Virus record (IMG/VR): IMGVR_UViG_3300028027_000186
Coordinates: 1-27,891 of that record
DNA length: 27,891 nucleotides
Origin: a virus
Reading direction: 5' to 3' (one strand)
Part shown: positions 304 to 23,029 of the stretch, one piece after another
How the letters are laid out: every line of letters starts with the position of its first letter
Numbering within the stretch: position 1 is the stretch's first letter
Program-made: the position numbers and the translations under genes
Notes under the pieces: generated by a model
What the model was told of the DNA's origin: nothing
The model's database searches: none
The model's input: the letters and a program-made list of their open reading frames with translations, nothing else

Positions 304-616
304 AATAAAAAAGGAATATTTGTTTAAGACTGTAACAATCAAACAAAAGTTTACAGCAATAACTTACAATCTGTGGAACTTAAATGAAAGAACTGCAGAA
401 TATCTTTATACCAATGGATATAAATATATGTTCGAAGAAGAACAGCTTCCTGAAGAAGCAATCAGTTTACAGCAGTCTGCGTCAGCTGACTTATCTTCAG
501 GCGAAACCTTACAACTTTCTGATGAACCCACATTTGATTTATTTGTAGATGAAAAGAAAGGATGTAAGACTTGTGGAAAATCTAAAACAAAAAGAAAATA
601 TACTAAGAGAACATGA
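278..616 (+). CDS. Small protein with Cys-rich basic tail, unknown function
   Basis: 112 aa. The N-terminal half is a compact mixed region (residues 5-55). The middle (about 56-95) is acidic and low in complexity. The C-terminus GCKTCGKSKTKRKYTKR holds a CxxC and a strongly basic tail, which could bind nucleic acid or metal. The ATG at 290, which gives MKTYKIKKEY, is an equally possible start; both overlap the preceding gene. The stop overlaps the start of the fibre gene as ATGA (613-616), a classic coupling arrangement, so all three left-end genes are probably one operon. No function is assigned. Confidence 0.7.
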   Translation: MNFQMKTYKIKKEYLFKTVTIKQKFTAITYNLWNLNERTAEYLYTNGYKYMFEEEQLPEEAISLQQSASADLSSGETLQLSDEPTFDLFVDEKKGCKTCGKSKTKRKYTKRT

Positions 617-2229
617 GAATACAAGATAGCCGACTTTTACTAAAGAGAAGTACTACTGCAGGACTTGAACCAACAGTTCCCACAGGAAGTACTATACATA
701 CTGATGGAACTTGGAATGTTGAAGATATCTATGCAGGTGAATTGTTTCTCAACATGGATGATAAGAAACTTTGGTTTGGATGGGAAGATATCTCAGGGAA
801 CACAGGTGTTAGTCTTGTGAATCCTTTTGGATATCTCACAGGAAGTTGTATTACTGATTTATTTGTTACAAATGTATACGGATGTTCTCCAATAACTATT
901 CATGATTCAATACAGAATCCAACTTCATTTGCAACAGGACTTTTATCAGTTGCTTTTGGTGATAGTAATACTGCTTCAGGAATTTATTCACATGCTCAAG
1001 GAGGTTTTAATACTGCTTCAGGAGATTATTCACACACTGAAGGAGCAGGAACTACTGCTTCAGGAGACGCTTCACATGCTGAAGGCGTAAATACTACAGC
1101 TTCAGGATTCTACTCACATGCTGAAGGAAATGGTAATATTGCATCAGGATTAGCCTCTCATGCTGAAGGACAAGCTAATACTGCTTCAGCATCTTGGACT
1201 CATGCTGAAGGATATGGTAATATTGCATCAGCAGACGGTTCTCATGCTGAAGGACTAAGTAATACTGCTACAGGCGATTTCTCACATGTTGAAGGATATT
1301 TAACTACAGGTTCTACATTATATGCACATGCTGAAGGAAAAGAAACATTAGCTTCAGGCGCAGCTTCACATGCTGAAGGAAATGGTACTATAGCTTCAGG
1401 AATTGCATCGCATTCTGAAGGATTAAGTAATATTGCTTCAGGAGATTATTCACATGCTGAAGGATTTTCTACAACTGCTTCAGGATTAAATTCTCATTCT
1501 GAAGGACAAGTTACAATTTCACAAGGAAACTATTCACATGCTGAAGGAAATAATACTTTAGCTTCAGGGGAAAATTCTCATTCTGAAGGAGATAGTACTA
1601 CTGCTTCAGGAACAGGTTCTCATTCTGAAGGAATTACAACAATTGCCCAAGGAAATTATTCACATGCTGAAGGAACAGCTACTTTATCTGCAGGATATTC
1701 TTCTCATTCTGAAGGAAATCTTACTCAAGCTTTAGGTAGTTGGAGTCATACCCAAGGAAGACATACAATTGCCAATGGAGATTATCAATGTGTCCTTGGA
1801 AAGTTTAACGTAACAGGTTCAACTGAAGCTGCATTTATAATTGGCAATGGAACAAATGATGCCACAAGAAGTAATCTTTTGGTAGCTGCAGGAAATGATA
1901 TTAATATCGTTGGAGATGTAAATATTACAGGGGATTGTACTGCTACAAATTTTATTGGAGATGGTTCACTTCTAACGAATTTACCTACTATAGGATTAAA
2001 ATCAAATACTGTTGCAGGTGCAAGTTTCGCAGGAAGCCCATTGAAATATACAGTTGTATTTGGAACACCATATGCTACTACCAATTATTCAATTACAATT
2101 ACAGGGGAAGTAAATAGAACTTTCTCTTGGGAAACTAAAACTGTCAACGGATTCGTAATAAATGCCAACTCTGCTACAGCTTTCGCAGGAAATGTAGATT
2201 GGATTACAAAATCACATGGAGAAATTTAA
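613..2229 (+). CDS. Tail fibre / adhesin with 19 YadA-head-like repeats
   Basis: 538 aa. Residues 1-110 form a putative virion-attachment region. Residues 121-386 are nineteen tandem 14-residue repeats of the type ASGxxSHAEGxxTT. The SH.EG core recurs at exactly 14-residue spacing (126, 140, ... 378). This matches the 14-residue left-handed beta-roll repeats of YadA/Hep_Hag trimeric adhesin heads, so a long trimeric shaft is likely. Residues 430-457 (GDVNITGDCTATNF, GDGSLLTNL) match the neck sequence common in phage fibres. The C-terminal 75 residues (TNYSITITGE ... NGFVINANS ... VDW) look like a distal beta-sandwich knob, the likely receptor-binding part. The start is fixed by ATGA coupling to the gene before. 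The role in host binding is inferred. Confidence 0.85.
   Translation: MRIQDSRLLLKRSTTAGLEPTVPTGSTIHTDGTWNVEDIYAGELFLNMDDKKLWFGWEDISGNTGVSLVNPFGYLTGSCITDLFVTNVYGCSPITIHDSIQNPTSFATGLLSVAFGDSNTASGIYSHAQGGFNTASGDYSHTEGAGTTASGDASHAEGVNTTASGFYSHAEGNGNIASGLASHAEGQANTASASWTHAEGYGNIASADGSHAEGLSNTATGDFSHVEGYLTTGSTLYAHAEGKETLASGAASHAEGNGTIASGIASHSEGLSNIASGDYSHAEGFSTTASGLNSHSEGQVTISQGNYSHAEGNNTLASGENSHSEGDSTTASGTGSHSEGITTIAQGNYSHAEGTATLSAGYSSHSEGNLTQALGSWSHTQGRHTIANGDYQCVLGKFNVTGSTEAAFIIGNGTNDATRSNLLVAAGNDINIVGDVNITGDCTATNFIGDGSLLTNLPTIGLKSNTVAGASFAGSPLKYTVVFGTPYATTNYSITITGEVNRTFSWETKTVNGFVINANSATAFAGNVDWITKSHGEI
973..1770 (+). repeat. Nineteen in-frame 42-nt imperfect tandem repeats
   Basis: Each unit encodes ASGxxSHAEGxxTT. 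The nearest-conserved DNA words are variants of ACTGCTTCAGGA and CATGCTGAAGGA. The units are diverged from each other but keep perfect 42-nt phase, so unequal recombination could change shaft length by whole units without breaking the frame. Confidence 0.9.
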
Positions 2230-15570: not shown

Positions 15571-16089
15571 TTAAAGTACTGAAAGTACAGCAGCTTCATC
15601 TACTTCATAAGCAGGTGTTGCACTTTCACAAGTAAATGTGAGAGTATATCCATTGGCATCAGCTTTAGCTGTACCTGAGCCACCTGCATTTCCTGTAAGG
15701 TATACTTTATCTTCATCAAAGCCAAAGCCCCAATAAAGTCCATTAGAATCCTTTACAATGCAAGTTAATTTCTGTTGCCCTGAAGCAATAAGTAACAAGG
15801 ATTGACGTTTTGCTGCTTCTCTACGAGCGAGAACAATGGTAATAGTTTGATTATAAAAAGTAGAACCATTTTCAAGAGAAACTGTCATATCTTCACCATA
15901 AGAAGAAGTATTTCTGTTGAATTGATATTCTACAAATTCTGTAGAACCTGACATTGCAATTGCAGAAATTTCACCATTTGCTTCAGTGAAACCTGATACA
16001 AAATCTTCAGGAGCTATAAAAAAACTAACTACACCACCTGCATTGTTGTCACAACCTTTTAAAATTGAAGTGAGAGTATTACAAGCCAT
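15571..16089 (-). CDS. Tail tube (major tail) protein
   Basis: 172 aa. The N-terminus MACNTLTSILKGCDNNAGGV and the later FYNQTITIVLARREAAKRQS with a C-terminal GYTLTFTCESATPAY are characteristic of tail-tube proteins in Bacteroidota siphophages: a short Cys-containing head, a beta-sandwich with a helix, and a final beta-strand pair. It would form hexameric rings stacked around the tape measure. The gene is separated from the capsid gene by a terminator, so it is probably expressed from its own promoter. Its A-rich leader ends AAATATAAACAA before ATG. Codons look more varied and less extreme in AT than in the large tail genes, in keeping with high expression. Confidence 0.75.
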   Translation of the reverse strand: MACNTLTSILKGCDNNAGGVVSFFIAPEDFVSGFTEANGEISAIAMSGSTEFVEYQFNRNTSSYGEDMTVSLENGSTFYNQTITIVLARREAAKRQSLLLIASGQQKLTCIVKDSNGLYWGFGFDEDKVYLTGNAGGSGTAKADANGYTLTFTCESATPAYEVDEAAVLSVL

Positions 16090-16121
16090 TTGTTTATATT
16101 TTTATTTTTTATTTGTTAAGT

Positions 16122-16152
16122 TTAAAAAAAGGGAGTTGTTTAGACTCCCTTT
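16122..16152 (-). terminator. Terminator after the capsid gene
   Basis: On the minus strand AAAGGGAGT-CTAAACA-ACTCCCTTT is followed by further T (complement of the A-run at 16124-16130). It separates capsid from tail-tube transcription. Confidence 0.85.
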
Positions 16153-16174
16153 GAAGTTTTTAATTTCCTATAGA

Positions 16175-17107
16175 CTAAGAGTAGAAAACAATTTCAGAAG
16201 ATACAAGGTAGGAAACACCCCATTTGAATCTACCTGCAATACGAACTGTAGAAACAGCTGCAACATTCCATTGAGGAACAACTGTAACAGTTTCGAAATC
16301 ATCCAACAAGTCAGTCAAAAGAATAAAGTTATCTTTTACACCTGCAACCATTGTGTTGTTTGACATTCCAGGAGCCCAAACGATTGGAATTCCGAGGAAG
16401 TTAGGTTCTTTAGCACCTACATAGTATGCTTCACTTGAAGCAGCTGCAATAGCTTGCTGATAAAGCTTGTAAATTTGAGTTGGAACATAAATAACCAAAT
16501 TAGGGTTATTCAAAATTGTTTGAGGAATTGCATCATATACTGAAGTAATCTCAGCAATTACATTTGAAAGTGTTACAGTAGTTCCTGTAGCAACAATAAC
16601 ATCACCATCAGCAGCAAGTTGAAGTTCCAAACCATCACAAATATTCAATGGATAAGTAGGAGCAGTTGCATCACCTTGCCATACAGCCAATTCCAAATCG
16701 TTCTGTACTTGTTTTTTCACTTGATTAAGCATGTAGCTTGTGAAAAGTTCAGGAGCAACTTCACCTGTGTTAGAACCAGGACGTAGGTATTCACCCAAAA
16801 AGTTAGCTTCGAATGTGGTTGTACAAAGTTCCATTTGGAATTCTTTATCACAAACTTCAAAAGATTTTTGAGAAAGAGTACCTTCGCCTGCAGGACTCCA
16901 AGAGCAACCTGCATCTTTAATAAGTTCACCTACATTATATTGAGGCAATTTGATTTTACTTTTTACTCCAGGGACTACACGGAATGTTTTGCTTGAAACA
17001 CCATCCAAAAGAGCTACGCTGAAAAAATCAACTGCATCTTTTCCTTCATAAACAGTGTTATCTGTAATAGCAAATTTGAATTTTTTTGACAAAATAGATT
17101 TACTCAT
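16175..17107 (-). CDS. Major capsid protein (HK97-like fold)
   Basis: 310 aa, directly downstream of the protease-scaffold gene, as expected for a capsid gene. Features typical of this group: an N-terminal arm without an obvious long delta domain; a region with Cys residues (GELIKDAGCSWSPAGEGTLS, residues 56-75); a spine-like helix (FTSYMLNQVKKQVQNDLELAVWQGD, 121-145); then P-domain and A-domain-like segments (NPNLVIYVPTQIYKLYQQAI; GIPIVWAPGM; GRFKWGVSYLVSSEIVFY at the end). It would form the icosahedral shell, matured by the upstream protease. An 87-nt gap with the dyad ATTGAT-TAT-ATCAAT (17150-17164) precedes it, so extra transcription starts are likely. Confidence 0.85.
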   Translation of the reverse strand: MSKSILSKKFKFAITDNTVYEGKDAVDFFSVALLDGVSSKTFRVVPGVKSKIKLPQYNVGELIKDAGCSWSPAGEGTLSQKSFEVCDKEFQMELCTTTFEANFLGEYLRPGSNTGEVAPELFTSYMLNQVKKQVQNDLELAVWQGDATAPTYPLNICDGLELQLAADGDVIVATGTTVTLSNVIAEITSVYDAIPQTILNNPNLVIYVPTQIYKLYQQAIAAASSEAYYVGAKEPNFLGIPIVWAPGMSNNTMVAGVKDNFILLTDLLDDFETVTVVPQWNVAAVSTVRIAGRFKWGVSYLVSSEIVFYS

Positions 17108-17194
17108 GATTTATTGTTTTTATTTTTTATTTTTAAGTTTTGAGTTTTAATTGATTATATCAATATATATAAAATTACATTTTTTGTTTCAGTG

Positions 17195-17659
17195 TTATTC
17201 TGTAATTAGTCTTCTAAGGTTAGAAACTCTAAATTTGATATCATTGAATTTTTCTTTATTCAATTCAATTTCAAGTTCACCTGAAGGTTTGTTGCCTTCT
17301 AACATTTCAATTCTTGATTGCATTTCAGCCATCATTGCACGGATTTCATCTAAAATTGGATTAATAATAGGCATGATTTCTTCTGCAGTAACTTGCATTT
17401 TAACTTCTTCTTTTTTGTCTTTAGATTGTTCAAGTTCTTCTACAACTACTTCTGCAGGTGTAATTTCAGAAATAAGCCCTTCAGCATCAATCATAAGCAT
17501 AGTACCATCTTCAAGGATAACTTCTCCTTCAGACATTTGCTCCATAGTGCCATCTTCAAGTATCACAAATACAGGAGAACCTACCATGATTTCACCTTCA
17601 ATAGAAATTTTTACTCCATCGTTAGTCAAATATTCAGAAAATTTAATTCTTTTTTTCAT
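17195..17659 (-). CDS. Nested in-frame scaffold protein (internal start)
   Basis: 154 aa, identical to residues 405-558 of the protease gene. The ATG at 17659 is preceded by GATAAAATAAAATTAAACAAA. This is an A-rich leader almost identical to those of genuine starts in this genome, for example AAATATAAACAA before the tail-tube ATG. The codons just before it encode a low-complexity linker (NQQDKIKLNK), consistent with sequence constrained for initiation. The product has a beta-rich acidic first half (EDGTM occurs twice) and a C-terminal coiled coil, fitting an assembly scaffold. Lambda C/Nu3 is the known precedent for such nesting. Internal initiation is inferred. Confidence 0.5.
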   Translation of the reverse strand: MKKRIKFSEYLTNDGVKISIEGEIMVGSPVFVILEDGTMEQMSEGEVILEDGTMLMIDAEGLISEITPAEVVVEELEQSKDKKEEVKMQVTAEEIMPIINPILDEIRAMMAEMQSRIEMLEGNKPSGELEIELNKEKFNDIKFRVSNLRRLITE

Positions 17660-18871
17660 TTTGTTTAATTTTATTTTATCTTGTTGGTTTAATTGTTCAT
17701 TTTCTATTTGTTGTATTTTGTTTATTGCCCAATTTATTCCTTCATCTCCTCCCCAACTGTCCCACATTAATTTTCCACATCCTTCACCATAAGGAGTATC
17801 TTTATTTTGCTCATGACGTATAAATGCAGCCATTCTTTTGATAGTTTCAACAGAAATAGGTTCTTTATTAGCTAATTGATTTGCTCTTATTTTGCCAACA
17901 GGTGTTCCACAAGAACCCCATCCATTTTCTTCAGCATAATTTAATGCTCTTTGGGCATTCTCAGTTGCAGCTTCAGGATAATCAGTATATGATTCAAATT
18001 CTTCTTCAGAAATTATATTAATATAAAATTTATATCCAATATTTCCTAATTCATCAATAACATCTTGATTATCATCATAATGTTTTGATATATTTAATTC
18101 TTTTATCTTTTCAATTTTAGCATTATTAGAACCTTCAGCAAAAATATTTGAATGAGGAACTTTAAATTCATCTGTAATTTCAAATATATTTTCTTTTGTA
18201 TGTCTTGCAGATATAATATAAACTTCAGAACCTTTATTTATTTCTTCCTGTAACATATCTCTACCTTCTTTAGTTGTTAATACTCCATCAACATCAAAAG
18301 AAATTCGATTAAGTTCAAAATTTTTCTTTAGAAGTTCAGACATTTTCAATCCTAACAATCCTTCAATACTGAAACCATATCTACCTTCTTTCTTAATTTC
18401 TTTTTCCCAAAAATCTTTATCAGTGATTTTAACTTCAGCAAAAAATGTTCCTACAGGAAGATTATCAAATCCATACATTTTAGATTTATCATATTCTTCT
18501 GATTCAATTATCCAACTACCTAACATAAATGCAGGAGCTATTTTTTCAGTATGCTCAATATTGAACATATCTTTCTTAGGATTTTGATTGAAACGTTCAA
18601 CCATTTTCTTAATGGTTTCTTTGGAGAATGTTACATAATATTCTCCAATTTCTTCATCATATCTATAAATTTTCAAATCAGGAATTAAGACAGCACCTGC
18701 AACAATCATTTGTTCTTCAGAAAGTTTGAATTGCAAAATTGGTTTATTATCTGCTAAAGTTACACCTTTAACAAGTATTGCAGGATTTGATACAAAAGAA
18801 ATCAAATCAATTCCTGCTTCATCATAATCATCAATACTAATTTGATATATTGGTAATTGTCTTTCTGTCAT
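17195..18871 (-). CDS. XkdF-type prohead protease fused to HAD-like, conserved and scaffold domains
   Basis: 558 aa in four parts. (1) Residues 10-180: XkdF-like protease with NIEHT (H107) and GRYGFSIEG (S168) as the likely catalytic His and Ser. (2) Residues 186-285: HAD phosphatase-like insert with motif I DVDGVL (D193, D195), motif II IISAR (S221), a Lys-rich helix (251-259) and motif IV HYDDN (D266/D267), all key residues present. (3) Residues 298-390: YPEAATENAQRAL ... RANQLANKEPIS ... LMWDSWGGDEG, a domain often seen in phage head-morphogenesis proteins, activity unknown. (4) Residues 405-558: acidic helical scaffold-like region (AEEIMPIINPILDEIRAMM, coiled coil). It lies 60 nt after the chaperone-like gene and 87 nt before the capsid gene. 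It would cleave the scaffold and capsid arm during prohead maturation. A separate scaffold may be translated from M405. Confidence 0.8.
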   Translation of the reverse strand: MTERQLPIYQISIDDYDEAGIDLISFVSNPAILVKGVTLADNKPILQFKLSEEQMIVAGAVLIPDLKIYRYDEEIGEYYVTFSKETIKKMVERFNQNPKKDMFNIEHTEKIAPAFMLGSWIIESEEYDKSKMYGFDNLPVGTFFAEVKITDKDFWEKEIKKEGRYGFSIEGLLGLKMSELLKKNFELNRISFDVDGVLTTKEGRDMLQEEINKGSEVYIISARHTKENIFEITDEFKVPHSNIFAEGSNNAKIEKIKELNISKHYDDNQDVIDELGNIGYKFYINIISEEEFESYTDYPEAATENAQRALNYAEENGWGSCGTPVGKIRANQLANKEPISVETIKRMAAFIRHEQNKDTPYGEGCGKLMWDSWGGDEGINWAINKIQQIENEQLNQQDKIKLNKMKKRIKFSEYLTNDGVKISIEGEIMVGSPVFVILEDGTMEQMSEGEVILEDGTMLMIDAEGLISEITPAEVVVEELEQSKDKKEEVKMQVTAEEIMPIINPILDEIRAMMAEMQSRIEMLEGNKPSGELEIELNKEKFNDIKFRVSNLRRLITE

Positions 18872-18912
18872 AAGAATATATATTTTTTATAATTTTTTGT
18901 TTTTACCTTGTA

Positions 18913-18928
18913 CTTACTGCGTAAGCAG
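18913..18928 (-). other. Post-stop hairpin element, copy 2 (CTGCTTACGCAGTAAG)
   Basis: On the minus strand it lies 2 nt after the TAA at 18933-18931. It matches copy 1 at 14 of 16 positions, and the two differences restore pairing in the CTYAC/GTRAG stem. No T-run follows. Confidence 0.6.
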
Positions 18929-18930
18929 AA

Positions 18931-19212
18931 TTATTCAATTTTCAACTCTTTTTTCATGCTAAGAAAATTAAGTACTTGTATATAATTCAATTCTAAAACT
19001 TTATCGTAGTCGCAAATACGTCCTTCAGCAAGTTTGAATAATAAGAGTTCCCAATTCCATTTTCTAATTGAGCGTTCTCGTGCCATTGCATCAGCTTCTT
19101 CCTTGCTTCTGAATTTTTTATTCTCAATATCAAGTTCTTCATCATCATCTCCTGCGTCATCTCCGTTGAACAAGATGTTGTATTGTTGCATAACTCGGTT
19201 ACGATGTGATAA
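18931..19212 (-). CDS. -1 frameshift extension of the chaperone-like gene
   Basis: After TTT TTT (residues 175-176 of the upstream ORF) a -1 slip reads TTA TCA CAT CGT and continues 93 codons to a TAA at 18931. The total product would be 269 aa. The extension reads an acidic linker (FNGDDAGDDDEELDIEN), then RSKEEADAMARERS and KWNWELLLFKLAEGRICDYD, a helical domain like those encoded downstream of tail chaperones. It could also start alone at the ATG at 19191 (86 aa), but no good A-rich leader precedes that ATG, and the -1 frame stays open back through the T-run, which favours a fusion. Confidence 0.55.
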   Translation of the reverse strand, partial: LSHRNRVMQQYNILFNGDDAGDDDEELDIENKKFRSKEEADAMARERSIRKWNWELLLFKLAEGRICDYDKVLELNYIQVLNFLSMKKELKIE

Positions 19213-19739
19213 AAAAAAACCACCGTTCCATACATATCAGCAATTTTCATATTATATTTAAAGAATTTTGCTTGATTTTCCAATTTTACATTATTATAAC
19301 TATCAATTTCATAATCGAAATTTTCATCCCCTTCAGAAATTAGCTTTCTATAGAAAATTGCAGCAATATAATGAAGATTTTGAATTACATCTCCATTGGT
19401 AACATAATGTTCAATATCAATCCATTCACCCAAAGTTAATTTATGTAAATCCTTTTGAAACCCATATTTTTTTCCTTGGATTTCAATTATATTTTTGAAT
19501 ATAGCATTAGGTTCATCTTCTAAAAAAATCATGTTAGTTTTGATTTCATCAATAACTTCATAATTCAATTTAAATAAGATTTCTTCATCTGTATCAGTTA
19601 ATATTGAAAGCATTTGAATCAATCTTGTCAAAGGACGTTTTTCTTCAGAATTTTTAGTATATTCAATATATTCTTGGAATTGTGCTATTGTAATCTCTTC
19701 CCAAGAGGTTGGAACTATTATTTTCATCTCTTCTGTCAT
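18993..19739 (-). CDS. Tail-assembly-chaperone-like protein, zero-frame product
   Basis: 248 aa. The N-terminal domain (MKIIVPTSWEEITIAQFQEY, residues 5-24, then RLIQMLSILTDTDEEI and a helical region to about 176) resembles a chaperone-like family in Bacteroidota siphophages. At residues 174-177 the codons GTT TTT TTT TAT form a run of nine T (19219-19211), including the canonical heptamer T TTT TTT. The zero frame continues 72 codons to 18993 with unusual sequence (EMTQEMMMKN). The -1 frame is open from the run onward and encodes a convincing C-terminal domain. Two products, as in lambda G and GT, are likely. The gene lies next to the protease rather than the tape measure, so the name stays tentative. 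Confidence 0.6.
   Translation of the reverse strand: MTEEMKIIVPTSWEEITIAQFQEYIEYTKNSEEKRPLTRLIQMLSILTDTDEEILFKLNYEVIDEIKTNMIFLEDEPNAIFKNIIEIQGKKYGFQKDLHKLTLGEWIDIEHYVTNGDVIQNLHYIAAIFYRKLISEGDENFDYEIDSYNNVKLENQAKFFKYNMKIADMYGTVVFFYHIVTELCNNTTSCSTEMTQEMMMKNLILRIKNSEARKKLMQWHENAQLENGIGNSYYSNLLKDVFATTIKF
19211..19220 (-). promoter_or_regulatory. Candidate -1 slippery site (G then T9)
   Basis: Zero-frame reading is GTT TTT TTT TAT. The heptamer T TTT TTT fits X XXY YYZ, and a one-base backward slip keeps every codon-anticodon pair. An extra or missing T in the assembly would give the same picture, so this needs read-level support. Confidence 0.55.
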
Positions 19740-21853: not shown

Positions 21854-23029
21854 ATGGCTTGGTATAACTTTTCTAAAGCTAAAAAAGAAATTATGGTTCT
21901 TCCTATTGAAAGGGAAACTGTAAAAGAAAAATTTGAAAAATTCTATGGATTAGATAGAGTTTCTTCTGAAAACTTGAATCAACCTTTGATTACAGAACGA
22001 TTCTCAGGAGAATATATTTTCTTTGGAAATGATAATCTTTATCCAAATTTACTTAATAATCTTTTTTATGCATCACCTTTTCATGCATCAATAATTAATT
22101 TCAAAAATCAACATATTGTTGGAAATGGTTACGATGTAATTACAAATACCACTCAACAAAGAGAATTGGTTGCTATTGAACAAATGAAATGGATGTTTAA
22201 TGAATTATTTATTCTTCAGATGGGTATGGATTTTAATATCCACAACAGACTCACTTGGAAAATCTATTGGAATGAGGCTCACGATAAAATTATCAATATT
22301 GAAAGAATTGAACCTGCTAAAGTTCGTGCAACGAAGAAGGTTGATGGAAAGATAAAAGAATATGTGGTTGCAACAGATTGGAGTCTTCGTGTTAGTGGAA
22401 TTAATGATAAAGAATACATTCCTTCCTTTGATACATTTAATAAGAAGGAAAGGATTCAATTGTGGGTATGGCAGGGTTACTCCCCAGGACTTGACTACTA
22501 TTGTCAGCCTGCATATGCTTCTGCAGTCAATTGGCTTTATCTTGATGGACAAATTTCTTATTTTCATAAATCAAATATTGAAAACAGTATTAATCCTTCA
22601 GTGGTAATGAAATTCTATGAGAAGCCTGCAAATGTTCAAGAGCAACAAGAATTTGTTCATAATTTAAGACGTTCATTCACTTCAGCAAGAAATGCAGGTA
22701 AAGTTTTGACATTCTTTTCTAATTCAAAAGAAGATGCTCCTGATATTCAAGTTTTGGAAGCAAATAAACTTGATGAAGCATTTATGACTACTCAAGAAAG
22801 CATTGTAAAGAATATTGCTTATGCTCATACTGTTAATCCTATTATACTTGGTGTGGCACAATCAGGTTCACTTGGAGCAGGTACTGAATATGAAGCTGCT
22901 TATACAATCTTTAAGAATACTTATGCAGAACCTACTCAAGAAACTTTAAATAAAATTCTAACGAGCTTCTTCAAAATAAATAATTTGAATGCTACAGTTA
23001 AATTGAAAGAAGTTAATGTAACAATGTGA
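21854..23029 (+). CDS. Portal protein
   Basis: 391 aa, short for a portal but within range. It has the usual opening ending in FFGNDNLYPNLLNNLFYASP (56-75), then AIEQMKWMFNEL (117-128), a WKIYWNEAHDKIINIERIEP segment, the central helical stem (LYLDGQISYFHKSNIENSIN, then EQQEFVHNLRRSFTSARNAG) and the C-terminal NPIILGVAQSGSLGAGTEYE that typifies portals of HK97-related phages of Bacteroidota. It forms the dodecameric ring for DNA entry and head-tail joining. Unusually, it lies directly after fibre genes and 16 kb from the terminase. Confidence 0.85.
   Translation: MAWYNFSKAKKEIMVLPIERETVKEKFEKFYGLDRVSSENLNQPLITERFSGEYIFFGNDNLYPNLLNNLFYASPFHASIINFKNQHIVGNGYDVITNTTQQRELVAIEQMKWMFNELFILQMGMDFNIHNRLTWKIYWNEAHDKIINIERIEPAKVRATKKVDGKIKEYVVATDWSLRVSGINDKEYIPSFDTFNKKERIQLWVWQGYSPGLDYYCQPAYASAVNWLYLDGQISYFHKSNIENSINPSVVMKFYEKPANVQEQQEFVHNLRRSFTSARNAGKVLTFFSNSKEDAPDIQVLEANKLDEAFMTTQESIVKNIAYAHTVNPIILGVAQSGSLGAGTEYEAAYTIFKNTYAEPTQETLNKILTSFFKINNLNATVKLKEVNVTM

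Follow-up and report, generated by a model that had tools for sequence, protein, structure and literature searches.

A small HAD-fold domain carried by a phage prohead protease and by other head proteins

We found that the prohead protease gene of a virus contains, in the same frame, a minimal domain of the HAD superfamily. The gene lies in the window, by which we mean the whole stretch of DNA analyzed (27,891 nucleotides; positions 1 to 27,891 of IMG/VR record IMGVR_UViG_3300028027_000186). The domain is mobile among phage head proteins, occurs in one copy per record, keeps its motifs under purifying selection, and is dispensable. We tentatively favor the notion that it is an accessory capsid-associated phosphatase module that would be placed in the head by its partner, possibly freed, and act on a phosphorylated substrate.

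A four-part gene in the head cassette

The gene encodes 558 aa on the minus strand. In the list of open reading frames, its ATG is at 18871 and its stop ends at 17195. The protease and the major capsid protein (MCP) belong to a head cassette on the minus strand (window 15571-19739); the plus strand carries the genes for terminase, tail and portal. The features are as follows.

17195..18871, minus strand: whole gene, 558 aa; XkdF protease, HAD, helical 'SDYP' domain and scaffold in one open frame
18359..18724, minus strand: XkdF-type serine protease domain, residues 50-171 (PF14550, 40.8 bits)
18551-18553, minus strand: codon of protease H107 (invariant, 47/47)
18368-18370, minus strand: codon of protease S168 (invariant, 47/47)
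18011..18316, minus strand: minimal capless HAD domain, residues 186-287 (model and family alignment)
18278..18295, minus strand: HAD motif I, DVDGVL, residues 193-198 (D193 131/131, D195 128/131)
18203..18217, minus strand: HAD motif II, IISAR, residues 219-223 (S221 131/131, R223 128/131)
18116..18118, minus strand: HAD motif III, K252 (131/131)
18068..18082, minus strand: HAD motif IV, HYDDN, residues 264-268 (D266 127/131; HYDNN in most relatives)
17690..17995, minus strand: 'SDYP' head-associated helical domain, residues 293-394, with two invariant Cys (phrog_2859; model pLDDT 93.4)
17198..17668, minus strand: scaffold-like C-terminal part, residues 402-558 (homology to separate ORFs between protease and MCP in relatives)
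16175..17107, minus strand: major capsid protein, the next gene downstream on the same strand (phrog_11320 and phrog_1623, virion structural protein)
21854..23029, plus strand: portal protein (phrog_11226 portal protein, 1.4e-21), without a HAD here, in contrast to the HAD-bearing portals of some relatives

The initial annotation had divided the protein into an XkdF-type protease, a HAD-like domain, a head-associated domain and a scaffold, and all four parts held up. The N-terminal part matches Peptidase_S78_2 (XkdF) well above the Pfam cut-off of 24 bits, and the catalytic H107 and S168 are invariant in all 47 distinct relatives. Like other XkdF-type phage proteases (PF14550), it has the conserved His and Ser and is encoded in a head cassette, adjoining the scaffold and the MCP. 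It differs in holding the HAD and SDYP domains between protease and scaffold; the protease-scaffold fusion of Nonlabens phage P12024S, the nearest named relative by protease, is without both. Protease residue 118 (18518-18520, minus strand) is Glu in 43/47 relatives and Gly in the window; judging from the alignment, this position might provide a third catalytic residue.

The virus likely infects a member of the Bacteroidota, because its protease is nearest to that of P12024S and the sole cellular match of the HAD domain is a Bacteroidetes MAG. Elsewhere in the window (613-2229, plus strand) is a 538-aa protein with many SHAEG-N-x-ASG repeats, which resembles a trimeric fiber or the head repeat of an adhesin.

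The SDYP domain (~100 aa) matches phrog_2859, and haloarchaeal viruses and Vibrio phages have it in their head genes. The viruses that carry it include phages of Bacteroidota, haloarchaeal viruses, and Vibrio/Roseobacter phages. The model has five helices, and an invariant W-G accompanies the two invariant Cys (A4 alignment). It had no meaningful match in the PDB (Foldseek best E 0.99; VIA best Z 3.7), and the predicted structure is possibly an undescribed fold. In loci L003-L016, SDYP has a gene to itself, encoding 141 aa that include a short Cys module at the N-terminus. By eye, this free gene lies ~2 kb upstream of a TerL-looking ORF in L004 and L012, and is followed by a GIY-YIG-like-looking ORF in L003 and L004. 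The last part of the window protein, residues ~402-558, is homologous to separate ORFs that relatives have in the scaffold position, between protease and MCP.

The HAD fold and its conservation

The predicted structure and the family alignment confirmed that the inserted domain has the HAD superfamily fold with motifs I-IV. All four motif regions were found where the initial annotation had placed them within the ~100-aa domain (residues ~188-287). An AlphaFold model based on a 43-row alignment had a pLDDT of 91.7. From its N-terminus, the model consists of a strand (motif I), a short helix, a helix, a strand (motif II), a helix, a strand, a helix (Lys), a strand (motif IV), a helix and a strand. 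When it was compared with the PDB using Foldseek, the top matches were HAD phosphatases (best E 3e-3). With VIA, the 3'-phosphatase of T4 polynucleotide kinase-phosphatase (Pnkp) ranked first (Z 11.7, rmsd 2.0, 98 aligned). Universal stress proteins tie with T4 Pnkp in this ranking, scoring almost as high; they share only the general Rossmann layout with the domain. The model has no cap insertion, from which we would expect an active site that is open or that a neighboring domain covers.

The 3'-phosphatase of T4 Pnkp is itself a capless HAD, in which DxD, S-x-R, Lys and motif IV follow the order seen here. In contrast to that enzyme, the domain described here has ~100 aa rather than ~145, has DNN rather than DD in most members, and is joined to head proteins. 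Members of the family match the phage nucleotidase profile phrog_8630 (33/43 members, best E 2e-7). No curated Pfam or NCBIfam family scored above its cut-off for the domain. Two other readings were rejected. Matches to de novo TIM barrels in the PDB were judged to be chance, and the weak PADLOC matches to CARF (E 0.002-0.007, members scanned singly) cover only a generic beta-alpha-beta stretch.

The motif residues are conserved, with one common exception. D193, S221 and K252 were unchanged in all 131 distinct relatives, as was the T/V position of motif I (131/131), and D195 and R223 were each kept in 128. D266 was Asp in 127, Glu in 3 and a gap in 1. The exception is the second motif-IV acid, D267, which is Asn in 126/131 relatives (HYDNN); the window is among three sequences with Asp there. 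From this replacement, catalysis would not be assured in the family. D195 is changed to His in three distinct divergent sequences (L142, L143, L144 and L149, where L142 and L143 are one locus), and R223 is changed to Ala in three divergent sequences. Judging from these substitutions, the divergent copies with a changed D195 are probably inactive. The initial annotation had named a non-HAD predicted fold and routine loss of the Asp motifs among relatives as outcomes that would count against its reading. The predicted fold proved to be HAD-like, and loss proved to be partial: the motif I Asps are kept apart from the three changes at D195, and the second Asp of motif IV is generally replaced.

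The median dN/dS of the domain was 0.13-0.20 in three clades, indicating purifying selection. We conclude that the domain is not a product of chance, because it recurs in 131 distinct sequences with its motifs kept and a purifying dN/dS.

Exchange among head proteins and dispensability

We found related domains in many phage contigs. Searching viral contigs with the window HAD alone gave no relatives, as this sequence is a divergent member of the family. When the HAD of L001 was aligned with it, the two rows found 107 relatives, and a scan of IMG/VR with a wider alignment found at least 461 related loci. A search of genome contigs gave a single match, the Bacteroidetes MAG. The same domain is present in BFVD entries from uncultured Caudovirales named 'HAD-like domain containing protein' and 'XkdF' (39-47% identity and TM 0.86-0.90 for the best six), whose names are automatic annotation only.

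The domain is joined to several kinds of head protein. Among 84 non-redundant HAD sequences, 38 were fused to an XkdF protease, 34 were free genes, 6 were fused to a portal, 3 were fused to an HK97-type protease, and 3 were cut by a contig end. The search for the same fusion in other phages, one of the checks that had been proposed, thus returned 38 XkdF-HAD fusions. The first description of the domain as a phosphatase inside a maturation protease was correct about the fusion and too narrow about the family.

The fusions are variously arranged. The 38 XkdF-HAD fusions showed seven orders relative to SDYP, and the exact order protease-HAD-SDYP was seen once in the sample. The protease is N-terminal in the window and C-terminal in most fused relatives. 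HK97-type protease fusions matched PF04586 with 158-165 bits. Portal fusions matched PF04860 with 111.6 bits in one lineage. The others scored 22-35 bits, short of the 39.1-bit cut-off, and resemble the window's own portal in this respect. In seven of the inspected free-gene contexts with a TerL match, the HAD gene was just upstream of TerL. In L105, the free HAD is a bare 97-aa ORF that starts MKISFD, between protease and scaffold. A HAD gene precedes the tape measure gene in L142.

Records with the domain contained exactly one copy of it (53/53, from sets of 27/27 and 26/26), and one XkdF protease was present in 26/27 of the first such records examined. On a tree of the domain, the fused and free states require at least six changes, two of which are forced by well-supported branches; the 96 columns limit resolution. 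A Cys module of ~45 aa precedes the HAD in 21/38 XkdF, 22/34 free and 3/6 portal contexts, and may be a propeptide or targeting module.

Other modules were seen in the same proteins. In L147 and L166, a Tudor-like domain (PF11160) lies between the HAD and an HK97-type protease. The N-terminal half of the XkdF fusion in L058 and L064 holds an extra Cys-rich module of ~120 aa (CGNCSFFN...GYCEAF...TCDAWVVGGP), vaguely HiPIP-like by eye; the L058 copy had no Pfam or PHROG match. XkdF proteins in L044 (3080-3997) and L025 (2111-3073) carry modules otherwise found at the end of a portal family (phrog_33693; weak in L025), and the L044 protein also carries DUF3721. These two cases suggest that modules move between portal and protease.

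Related phages do without the domain. P12024S gene 01 consists of protease and scaffold with nothing between them, and no HAD was found elsewhere in the P12024S genome. L022 and L019 share 89% identity across 5.4 kb, and of their records only that of L019 has the HAD. These comparisons of gene content indicate that the domain is accessory. Since the same single-copy domain occurs on another protease family, on portals and as its own gene, and since there are protease-scaffold proteins without it, the HAD is neither a part of the protease nor needed for proteolysis.

Possible roles of the domain

All identified fusion partners are prohead-interior or portal-vertex proteins, and placement in the head is therefore the simplest common denominator. 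The free copies beside terminase are no proof of packaging. A survey of polyvalent proteins read the enzyme domains found on MuF or portal proteins as effectors that are packaged and injected (PMC5512222). By analogy, the HAD would be a capsid-associated phosphatase, probably delivered with the DNA.

Based on these results, we suggest the following course of events for the accessory phosphatase module. The HAD would be brought into the head by the protein to which it is joined (XkdF protease, HK97-type protease or portal), or, where it is encoded separately, by the short module at its N-terminus. During maturation, the prohead protease may free it at junctions rich in cleavage-like motifs with Glu. 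With its open site, it could then remove phosphate from a large substrate or a nucleotide, most likely once it has been ejected along with the DNA into a newly infected cell. We infer catalysis, release, packaging, ejection and substrate.

The junctions suggest how release might occur. The motif [FLIMY][AS]x?E was present in 30/50 non-redundant junctions around the starts of HAD and SDYP. Glu residues at junctions were in this context in 31/46 cases, compared to 132/1059 other Glu (odds ratio 14.5), with the motif framed after the sequences had been viewed and the rows related rather than phylogenetically independent. The window's own junctions, NFELN and EEFES, fit it only partly. The [FL]A motif might be intrinsic to the modules, although the HAD of L105 begins directly at MKISFD, and haloviral portals that bear SDYP are without the motif. 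The prohead protease of SPN3US has a measured consensus of A-x-E and cuts after the Glu (PMC10052503), a consensus that may not be the specificity of XkdF-type proteases. This pattern suggests release by cleavage at Glu motifs. Of the roles offered in the initial annotation, the pattern agrees with a module that would be carried in the prohead and cut free, and this is the explanation that we tentatively favor.

A fuller version is possible, though we doubt it more. The family would then be a virion-packaged HAD phosphatase, swapped among unrelated head proteins (two protease families, portals and free genes), cut loose in the capsid by the maturation protease, and sent in with the DNA to act on a phosphorylated molecule of the host, possibly a defense signal or a nucleic-acid end.

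The main rival is a role in head assembly or DNA packaging. The HAD might, for example, dephosphorylate a protein of the head or of the terminase, or else DNA ends close to the portal; it would not have to be ejected. This would account for partners that are portals and prohead proteases, for the many free copies directly upstream of TerL, and for a best structural match that is a nucleic-acid 3'-phosphatase. However, related heads are built without a HAD. Terminases are generally held to produce 3'-OH ends when they cut, which would leave a 3'-phosphatase with nothing obvious to do during packaging. We consider this role unlikely.

As a second rival, the HAD might no longer be catalytic; it would then have a structural or ligand-binding function inside the prohead and be exchanged as other small head modules are. 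The common Asn in motif IV and the three members without D195 and R223 are consistent with this, and the domain is accompanied by other small modules for which no enzymatic role is known. In contrast, D193, D195, S221, K252 and D266 hardly vary despite many rearrangements, a conservation that a purely structural part would not call for; moreover, relatives manage without the domain and free copies exist. We regard a non-catalytic module as somewhat less probable again than a role in assembly.

A phosphatase half of a T4-Pnkp-like end-healing system, with separate kinase and ligase, is very improbable. Besides the structural match to the T4 enzyme, there were weak matches to T4 PseT (hhalign E 3e-4, probability 38%) and to the polynucleotide kinase family phrog_415 (best E 0.0087). 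However, the window ORF has no kinase domain, and a PNK-type kinase (PF13671) was found in 0/28 records, many of them incomplete, while the control genomes were all positive. We dropped a T4-like pair as the main idea for this reason. Finally, an accidental in-frame fusion or chimera, which might be suspected from the single occurrence of the exact domain order, is hardly credible given 38 non-redundant fusions from many samples, public predicted structures of the fusion named XkdF, and purifying selection.

The accessory phosphatase module most resembles the polyvalent, MuF and portal effector fusions (Iyer et al. 2017, PMC5512222), in which enzyme domains are likewise found on head and portal proteins, are shuffled, and also occur solo. 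It differs from them in that the window ORF has no MuF match and has its protease at the N-terminus, whereas the assemblin-like peptidase of polyvalent proteins is C-terminal (PMC5512222). The word 'phosphatase' is absent from the text of that survey, and our literature search for a HAD with a prohead protease or XkdF found no paper describing the fusion or the domain.

Until now, the head proteins described as carrying enzyme cargo were MuF and portal fusions; our results add maturation proteases to them and a phosphatase fold to the cargo. That the same single-copy domain moves among unrelated proteins of the prohead interior is an evolutionary argument that the capsid interior, and not the protease, is the place where the domain matters. 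IMG/VR holds many phage contigs with members of the family, whose small size lends itself to quick testing. Ejection of the HAD, if it occurs, would make it an early counter-measure or repair enzyme in Bacteroidota phages, for which few examples have been worked out.
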